Assembly: GCA_026709915.1 (NCBI GenBank)
Contig: JAPORZ010000022.1
Span: 1-33,030 of the forward strand
Length of the DNA: 33,030 nt
Reading direction: 5' to 3'
From: Gammaproteobacteria bacterium
GTDB taxonomy: Bacteria; Pseudomonadota; Gammaproteobacteria; Eutrophobiales; Eutrophobiaceae
The translations under genes were made by a program, and so were the position numbers. Every line of letters starts with the position of its first letter. The first letter of the stretch is position 1. The notes under the pieces were generated by a model, which made no database searches, was not told where the DNA came from, and worked only from the letters and a program-made list of their open reading frames with translations. Below are positions 1-33,030 of this stretch, in pieces.

Positions 1-98
1 AGAGATTTTATTCGGACAACCTGTGTGATATGTATAAAAGTGTGCGGTTGCCCTATTGACAGGATGTGAAGCTCCTGTTTTAATGTTGTTTATCTTAC
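1..98. other. Gene-free left edge with a small hairpin
   Basis: No coding region is supportable here. A perfect 6-bp hairpin (ACAGGA / TCCTGT, loop TGTGAAGC) lies at about 59-78. Its loop and stem resemble positions 12985-13002 inside the 107-bp repeat variant (GGGG TGTGCAG CTCCC), so this may be a decayed part of the same repeat family. TGCGGTTGCC at 43-52 resembles TGCGGTTACC at 302-311 and 7941-7950. Confidence 0.35.
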
Positions 99-249
99 GG
101 TAACCTCTAAAAATGCCATCCGTGGCATTTTCAGAGACGGAAATGAAAAAGTGTGATTTTTCATTTTCTTCATTTTCAAGCACTTACGTGCTTAAAAATG
201 GCAGCACATCCCTGTGCTGCACGGTCACCTCTAATTAATAGAGGTGACC
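99..249 (+). repeat. 151-bp multi-hairpin intergenic repeat, copy A
   Basis: The element starts GGTAACCTCT and ends AGAGGTGACC, an imperfect terminal inverted repeat. Almost every base falls in one of five consecutive hairpins: S1 105-136 (CTCT.AAAATGCCA / TGGCATTTT.AGAG), S2 141-166 (AAATGAAAAA / TTTTTCATTT), S3 172-199 (ATTTTCAAGCAC / GTGCTTAAAAAT, one mismatch), S4 201-220 (GCAGCACA / TGTGCTGC) and S5 223-249 (GGTCACCTCTA / TAGAGGTGACC, loop ATTAA). A near-identical copy of the same length lies at 29737-29887 in the opposite orientation, and another begins at 32889. There is no ORF, so it cannot move by itself. It resembles REP/BIME or MITE-type elements in general form, but I do not recognise the family. 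Confidence 0.9.
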
Positions 250-384
250 TTACTTTGAAAGTTAGATATGCAACATAAAATAATGCGAACAAACCTCCTC
301 TCTGCGGTTACCGTGAACCTGTCCGAGGCGCCAGACGCGGTGAAAACTGCCATTGTAATGGCAACTTTATGTCATTACGTGCAA
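250..384. other. Intergenic spacer downstream of the hydrolase gene
   Basis: No gene is visible. GCGGTTACCGTGAACCT at 303-319 nearly matches GCGGTTACCCTGAACCT just after yicC (7942-7958). This suggests a second, shorter dispersed repeat type. The only other structure is the small hairpin at 348-363, described separately. Confidence 0.4.
341..363 (-). terminator. Possible weak terminator of the RND/hydrolase operon
   Basis: Read on the minus strand, 21 bp past the hydrolase stop, there is a perfect 7-bp stem TGCCATT / AATGGCA with a 2-nt loop, followed by GTTTTC. The T-run is only four long and the stem is A/T-rich, so intrinsic termination would be weak. Confidence 0.3.
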
Positions 385-12918: not shown

Positions 12919-13025
12919 GGGAACCTCTAAAAATGCCATCCATGGCATTTTTGCTATGTAAATTTTGAAAATTTACATACTGTCGGGGTGTGCAGCTCCC
13001 TGATCATGAGGGTTTAGAGGTGGCC
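12919..13025 (+). repeat. 107-bp variant of the multi-hairpin repeat, copy B
   Basis: It has the family ends GGGAACCTCT ... AGAGGTGGCC and keeps hairpin S1 (AAAAATGCCA / TGGCATTTTT). The middle is replaced by a different perfect hairpin, ATGTAAATTTT / AAAATTTACAT (12957-12979), followed by a GGGG-TGTGCAG-CTCCC stem and a CCCT / AGGG stem. It therefore shares termini with the 151-bp copies but not the cargo. It lies between the divergent msrA and kamA-like genes. Confidence 0.8.
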
Positions 13026-14639: not shown

Positions 14640-14666
14640 GGGAACCTCCAATTTTTAGAGGTGGCC
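14640..14666. repeat. Solo terminal hairpin of the repeat family, copy E
   Basis: GGGAACCTCCAATTTTT followed by AGAGGTGGCC is a 27-bp version made of only the family's terminal hairpin. It lies alone between two convergent genes (KamA-type ends 14608, phaC ends 14704). There is no T-run after the stem on either strand, so it is not a textbook terminator, but the location suggests it ends or protects transcripts. Confidence 0.65.
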
Positions 14667-19688: not shown

Positions 19689-19715
19689 GGTAACCTCTGA
19701 TTTTTAGAGGTCCCC
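19689..19715. repeat. Solo terminal hairpin of the repeat family, copy F
   Basis: GGTAACCTCTGATTTTT followed by AGAGGTCCCC has a 6-bp ACCTCT / AGAGGT stem. It is another solo hairpin, located between the convergent Sel1 gene (ends 19640) and radA (ends 19737). Neither strand has a T-run after the stem. Confidence 0.65.
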
Positions 19716-29721: not shown

Positions 29722-29736
29722 AAACCTCTGACTTTA

Positions 29737-29887
29737 GGCCACCTCTAAAAATTAGAGGTGGCCGTGCAGCATAGGGACATGCTGCCATTTTTAAGCACGT
29801 AAGTGCTTGAAAATGAAGGAAATGAAAAATCACACTTTTTCATTTCCGTCTCTAAAAATGCCACGGAGGGCATTTTTAGAGGTTGCC
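29737..29887 (-). repeat. 151-bp multi-hairpin intergenic repeat, copy C (inverted)
   Basis: This is the reverse-oriented twin of copy A, same length, with GGCAACCTCT at 29887 reading leftward and the terminal hairpin GGCCACCTCTA / TAGAGGTGGCC at 29737-29763. Compared with copy A, the third base pair of the terminal stem changes from T-A to C-G on both sides, and S4 changes from GCAGCAC/GTGCTGC to GCAGCAT/ATGCTGC. These are compensatory changes. It exactly fills the gap between the convergent antitoxin (ends 29721) and uvrA (ends 29899). Confidence 0.92.
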
Positions 29888-29898
29888 TTTAGAAGCGC

Positions 29899-32888: not shown

Positions 32889-33030
32889 GGTAACCTCTAA
32901 AAATGCCCTCCGTGGCATTTTTAGAGACGGAAATGAAAAAGTGCGATTTTTCATTTCCGTCATTTTCAAGCACTGACGTGCTTAAAAATGGCAGCATATC
33001 CATAATGCTGCACGGCCACCTCTAATTTTT
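32889..33030 (+). repeat. Multi-hairpin intergenic repeat, copy D (cut by the window end)
   Basis: It begins GGTAACCTCT and carries S1 to S4 in order. Its S2 stem is the most complete (GACGGAAATGAAAAA / TTTTTCATTTCCGTC, 15 perfect pairs). It ends at the window edge in the loop of the terminal hairpin, about 10 bases short of a full copy. It lies upstream of uvrA and points away from copy C. Confidence 0.9.

Follow-up and report, generated by a model that had tools for sequence, protein, structure and literature searches.

A class-wide, IS5-linked MITE of Gammaproteobacteria with two putative CsrA sites in conserved hairpin loops

The 151-bp repeat described here is, by its structure, its insertion marks and its links to the IS5 family, a MITE, an assignment made with high confidence. 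We consider it probable that this IS5-moved MITE carries a reverse-strand RNA with two putative CsrA sites. On this view, selection between the ends keeps a nucleic acid fold, probably that of an RNA transcribed from the reverse strand, and its hairpins 4 and 1 would each display a CANGGANG loop, the site of a CsrA/RsmE dimer. An earlier note on the same DNA had described the copies and their hairpins; the class-wide spread, the palindromised IS ends, the deletion scars and the CsrA-type loops were absent from it.

The window is the whole stretch analysed, 33,030 nucleotides, and corresponds to the entire contig C153 of a 2.6 Mb assembly in 258 contigs. Its features are the following.

99..249, forward strand: element copy 1, full-length, 151 bp (BLAST, fold, target-site duplication TTAC)
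95..98, no strand: left target-site duplication TTAC of copy 1, 4 bp
250..253, no strand: right target-site duplication TTAC of copy 1, 4 bp
105..136, forward strand: hairpin 1 of copy 1, the palindromised left terminal repeat (fold, covariation)
117..124, reverse strand: CsrA/RsmE consensus in the hairpin 1 loop, CACGGATG (CANGGANG) (consensus from PMC6849547)
139..168, forward strand: hairpin 2 of copy 1, conserved loop RTGYGA (fold, covariation, column conservation)
171..200, forward strand: hairpin 3 of copy 1 (fold, covariation)
201..220, forward strand: hairpin 4 of copy 1 (fold, covariation)
207..214, reverse strand: CsrA/RsmE consensus in the hairpin 4 loop, CAGGGATG (CANGGANG) (consensus from PMC6849547)
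223..249, forward strand: hairpin 5 of copy 1, the 27-bp palindromised right terminal repeat (fold, covariation)
12919..13025, forward strand: 107-bp relative with the ends and hairpin 1 of the 151-bp form and other inner hairpins (target-site duplication ATTA, weak covariance-model match)
14640..14666, no strand: solo terminal palindrome, 27 bp, without target-site duplication
19689..19715, no strand: solo terminal palindrome, 27 bp, deletion scar (target-site duplication TAAC)
29737..29887, reverse strand: element copy 2, full-length (target-site duplication TTTA at 29733-29736 and 29888-29891)
32889..33030, forward strand: element copy 3, 142 of 151 bases, truncated where the contig stops (TTAA on its left)

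The earlier note had placed the three long copies correctly. Of these copies, which it called almost identical in sequence and length, copy 2 is 151 bp long and 93% identical to copy 1, and copy 3 is truncated. Further copies lie at contig ends elsewhere in the genome, as is usual for repeats in short-read assemblies. The shared ends are real, reading GGTAACCTCT / AGAGGTGRCC, and two bases after the GG vary among copies. The minimum-free-energy fold as DNA consists of five successive hairpins (-46.3 kcal/mol, z = -12.6), and both strands folded as RNA also give five hairpins (z = -11.0 and -12.0), with 0 of 200 shuffles as good. The back-to-back arrangement is thus as first described, while the wording that nearly every base is paired was a bit strong: the conserved stems hold 57 pairs, or 114 of the 151 bases (75%). 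The element has no coding capacity. When the element is read on its reverse strand, CATTTTT comes directly after hairpin 4 (window positions 29766-29785), and this stretch receives a terminator-like score. Far from being confined to the window, the element gave 41 near-full-length BLAST matches in its own genome, where the covariance model found at least about 55 full-length copies.

Exact 4-bp target-site duplications flank 29 of 40 full-length copies in this genome, against 3.7 expected (maximum 10) when partner flanks are shuffled; their sequences include TTAA, TAAA, TTAT and TAAT. A screen of 607 kb of the genome that required both ends and a duplication recovered 28 elements, compared with 1 in a control with flank words shifted outward, and these fall into size classes of 26-27, 44, 107, 151-152 and 214 bp. 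Two copies in a genus mate (L046 and L049), identical-looking in the alignment, have different duplications, and across the class a duplication accompanies the terminal repeats in 34 of 61 copies. Together with terminal inverted repeats (GGNNACCTCTAAAAAT ends), short length, lack of coding capacity and high copy number (at least about 55 in this genome, G000, and at least 150 in G053), these marks bear out the earlier suggestion of a non-autonomous, structured, non-coding mobile element. In the same genus mate, the copy at G005:C95:20490-20640 (L117, L124, L126) has a piece of a DDE_Tnp_1 transposase gene on either side and apparently interrupts that gene.

For the 27-bp and 44-bp palindromes, the best explanation is that they are scars of deletion. 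Loss of the interior between short direct repeats would leave palindromes of these lengths, and the 44-bp form indeed consists of hairpin 1 and the right end, as deletion between TTTAGAG repeats predicts. The genome also contains many 27-bp palindromes resembling hairpin 5 alone, 11 of 21 with a 4-bp duplication. Among those bearing a duplication, 10 of 11 have unequal arms, most with one arm like the 5′ end and one like the 3′ end, as against equal arms in 52 of 55 instances of hairpin 5 within longer elements (Fisher P = 1.4e-8). Such inequality is predicted by deletion between the direct repeats ACCTCTAA, present in the left end and in hairpin 5, and makes it unlikely that the 27-bp palindromes transpose as units. 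At the other extreme, the 214-bp form has additional hairpins in common with the 107-bp copy. One instance (L076:15680-15893, target-site duplication TACA) combines the inner hairpins of the 151-bp and 107-bp forms, and this may be the ancestral layout.

The search for a transposase with matching ends, which the earlier note had proposed, gave candidate partners in related genomes and none in the assembly itself, where no IS4/IS5-type transposase was matched. This absence speaks against the transposase link, though multi-copy insertion sequences are frequently missing from fragmented assemblies of this type. Within the genus, candidates for an autonomous copy with PF01609 and PF05598 matches have other ends or none. 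The partner transposases belong to NCBIfam NF033581 (334-340 bits against a cut-off of 140) and contain PF05598 and PF01609 domains; the relatives carrying them are from the same taxonomic family and the same class as the host, and their elements have GGAACCTCTGA ends with duplications TTAG, CTAA or CTAG, as expected of the IS5 family. In G037 the insertion sequence has ends GGAACCTCTGAACAAGTCCC / GGAACCTCTGATTAAGTCCC and the duplication TTAG, and in G051 GGAACCTCTGATTAAGTCCC stands at both ends without a clean duplication. The ends in G010, G054, G055 and G056 resemble these, with the duplication TAAG in G056 and, for two copies in G054, TTAG and CTAA. The MITE is also present in G037, G010, G054, G055 and G056. 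Ends differ from the GGAACCTCTGA type in JAHJDE, L301 and L342.

The link extends to the hairpins themselves. In the distant copies L055 and L063, hairpin 1 consists of the IS end joined to the reverse complement of that end, and hairpin 5 is built from the right end in the same manner; the two outer hairpins are therefore palindromised terminal repeats. An IS5-family DDE transposase acting in trans would recognise these repeats and insert the MITE, making the 4-bp duplication, YTAR/CTAG-like in most lineages, and such an enzyme is the predicted mover in the host's own genus. A separate IS-like transposase with DUF772 occurs in 87 copies in G049, of the same taxonomic family (for example L146 and L147), and about half of these contain one TAG in frame, as would result from either amplification of a stop-bearing copy or read-through of the stop.

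Searches with the covariance model across the own and related genomes, as the earlier note had advised, revealed a multi-copy family spread throughout the class. In the taxonomic family of the host the element is found in 9 of 18 genera by BLAST and 11 of 18 by the covariance model; in an even sampling of the class, the model finds it in 57 of 369 genomes, from 47 genera and about 40 families. Carriers frequently have several copies and include complete single-contig genomes. Among the matches listed, the named carriers belong to uncultured Gammaproteobacteria whose isolate names indicate groundwater, marine and biocathode samples. JAHJDE01 has at least 150 matches, and many of its contigs (JAHJDE010000xxx, L159-L253) terminate inside a copy, so that the repeat is probably behind much of the fragmentation of this MAG. 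Outside the Gammaproteobacteria there was one match, in an Absconditabacterales MAG, which the covariance model failed to confirm; plasmid and phage collections gave no match. Rfam, at gathering and permissive thresholds, returned nothing credible, no paper on the family was found in the literature searched, and text searches with the end sequences led to no publication about a repeat or insertion sequence. Within the scope of these searches the family lacks a name, in agreement with the earlier note.

Structure is kept while sequence changes. Among copies of the genus, pairing holds in 97% of pair cells and 9 pairs have changed on both sides; among 45 distinct copies from the own and related genomes, 41 of 57 pairs have done so; and in 61 class-wide copies compensatory changes occur at 56 of 57 base pairs. 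Doubly changed cells in the last set number 726, where shuffles reach 163 and slid controls no more than 102, a margin far beyond these controls for alignments that, being fitted to the covariance model, lean towards the structure. The ends vary by lineage (GGAASCTCTGAA; GAGGAACTTGCAAAA in JAHJDE01), while the inner hairpins persist: L301, with ends CAGGCTGTTGAAAAA and the duplication CTAG, retains them, as does L342, with TTAGTGTCCATCC-like ends. In L342 (G010:C136:38701) the ends, TTAGTTGTCATCC / TTAGTGTCCATCC, are entirely different, hairpins 2-4 are as usual and the GGA loop is missing from hairpin 1. The hairpin 2 loop RTGYGA (window 151-156) is strongly conserved class-wide and matched no motif that could be named.

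Published consensus sequences (PMC6849547) are A/UCANGGANGU/A for CsrA/RsmE and, from SELEX, RUACARGGAUGU. Reverse-strand examples from the element are GCACAGGGATGTGC for hairpin 4 and GCCACGGATGGC for hairpin 1. In 54 class-level copies, the loop columns A, G, G and A carry 1.6-2.0 bits, and column N is nearly unconstrained (0.12 bits in hairpin 1, 0.54 bits in hairpin 4). Two GGA hairpin loops are found on the reverse strand of 51 of 57 copies, the several hairpins with (A)NGGA loops that characterise CsrA-binding RNAs, against 0 of 57 on the forward strand and 12 of 1140 dinucleotide shuffles. Because the first model might favour GGA loops, a second model was built with both loops masked. 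It recovered an almost identical set, 52 of 369 genomes, with two GGA loops in 52 of 60 copies and at least one in 60 of 60, and model bias is therefore rejected as their source. In the family-level alignment no more than 1 of 46 copies shows a GGA loop, whichever strand is read, in any one of hairpins 2, 3 and 5, and some hairpin 1 loops read CCAGGATG in place of CANGGANG. The CAGGAUG repeat of CsrB is close to CCAGGATG. In favour of the CsrA reading, csrA (PF02599) is present once per genome in 7 of 7 genomes of the genus. Two points count against it: the two CsrA-type sites lie about 90 nt apart, and Rfam gave no CsrB/Rsm match for the element, with a single non-significant RsmV fragment at 14.9 bits. 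The RMfam paper (PMC4333381) drew on like evidence when it proposed that TwoAYGGAY and the reverse complement of Bacillaceae-1 bind CsrA. That the reverse strand is transcribed, that CsrA binds its RNA and that genes are affected are predictions from these sequence patterns, and a role for the conserved pair of sites is a strong hypothesis.

The most serious alternative, possible though we think it unlikely, is a plain MITE without RNA function, its hairpins being kept perfect by strand switching, in which one arm is copied from the other, or because transposition requires them. The mobility marks and the palindromised terminal repeats of the end hairpins suit this explanation, as does the lack of orientation or position bias, and arm copying would yield paired changes too, so that it could partially mimic the covariation. 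Such copying, however, leaves loops unconserved, yet the two GGA loops are among the most conserved columns, their single free position falls exactly at the free position of the CsrA consensus, and they persist in copies from about 40 families with differing end sequences.

The genomic context bears both on how an RNA would act and on a second alternative. Co-directional copies number 16 versus 8 in the own genome, a non-significant excess favouring the other strand, and 11 versus 11 across the class; with no such bias, the cis-regulatory reading tested in this way was set aside. No sigma-70-like promoter was found in the surroundings of copy 2. Together, these two results argue against a simple leader role, which would leave a sponge or low-level read-through. 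Copies are almost wholly intergenic, commonly less than 50 nt from a stop codon, two terminator-like hairpins have T runs, and 9 of 18 solo palindromes lie between convergent genes, all as would be expected of a terminator or mRNA stabiliser at transcript ends of the kind proposed for REP/ERIC repeats. Class-wide, however, divergent sites (14) are as frequent as convergent ones (13), and the GGA loops conserved on one strand would be left unexplained, which makes this account improbable. Still less probable is a structure acting as single-stranded DNA whose loops are contacted by the transposase or a host protein: the good fold as DNA and its retention in lineages with different ends agree with it, but IS5-family transposases act on double-stranded ends and the loop consensus is that of a known RNA-protein interaction, free position included. 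The REP/RAYT link raised in the earlier note is not supported, in view of the true terminal repeats and the 4-bp duplications, which with the IS5-family partners indicate a DDE transposase instead.

Comparison with known systems sets the element apart. Correia elements (CREE/NEMIS, Neisseria) and other structured bacterial MITEs are likewise short, non-coding and numerous, with terminal inverted repeats, target-site duplications and folded transcripts (PMC10969869). Unlike Correia elements, which are recognised by a TA target duplication, the element has 4-bp YTAR-like duplications, IS5-family ends, and five fixed hairpins with strong class-wide covariation and two conserved CsrA-type loops; we know of no CsrA-type motif in Correia elements. 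The bcr1 repeats of the Bacillus cereus group, which PMC4853749 cites, are also about 150 bp, structured and mobile-looking, but have hosts in a different phylum. CsrB, RsmY and RsmZ bind CsrA through several hairpins with GGA loops (PMC4383904, PMC4333381), as the element may, but are single chromosomal sRNA genes, whereas here the sites lie in a transposable element with tens to more than 100 copies. TwoAYGGAY (RF01731) and the reverse complement of Bacillaceae-1 (RF01690) are likewise conserved structures without an assigned function that carry two CsrA-motif hairpins, the latter on the strand opposite to the first-described one (PMC4333381); these occur in Clostridia and Bacilli, and the element matches neither Rfam model. 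REPs are shorter, at 20-40 bp, and mostly bear a GTAG or CGTC tag at one of their ends (PMC3733652). The element resembles REP/REPIN sequences with RAYT in being a multi-copy extragenic palindrome and differs in its 151 bp, true terminal inverted repeats, paired ends and 4-bp duplications.

In the preferred reading, that of an IS5-moved MITE with two putative CsrA sites, scattered copies would serve as CsrA-binding RNAs, which would either act as a sponge or bring mobile CsrA sites close to genes. For the class as a whole, we see an even chance that this is a transposable element carrying, as its conserved cargo, an RNA with two CsrA-binding sites; the element would spread, and perhaps profit from, the sites of a global regulator, its terminal repeats, and hence its transposase, being swapped while the cargo is kept.

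Two consequences are practical: a covariance model is now available for a repeat at which many short-read assemblies break, and the solo palindromes offer a clear example of solo-LTR-like deletion scars in a bacterial MITE. In many Gammaproteobacteria, metabolism, biofilm and virulence are under the control of CsrA/RsmA, and competing RNAs with GGA hairpins determine how active this regulator is. If the preferred reading is true, an unnamed family would add tens to more than 100 paired CsrA sites per genome, and both the free CsrA pool and the origin of new CsrA targets would have to be rethought.
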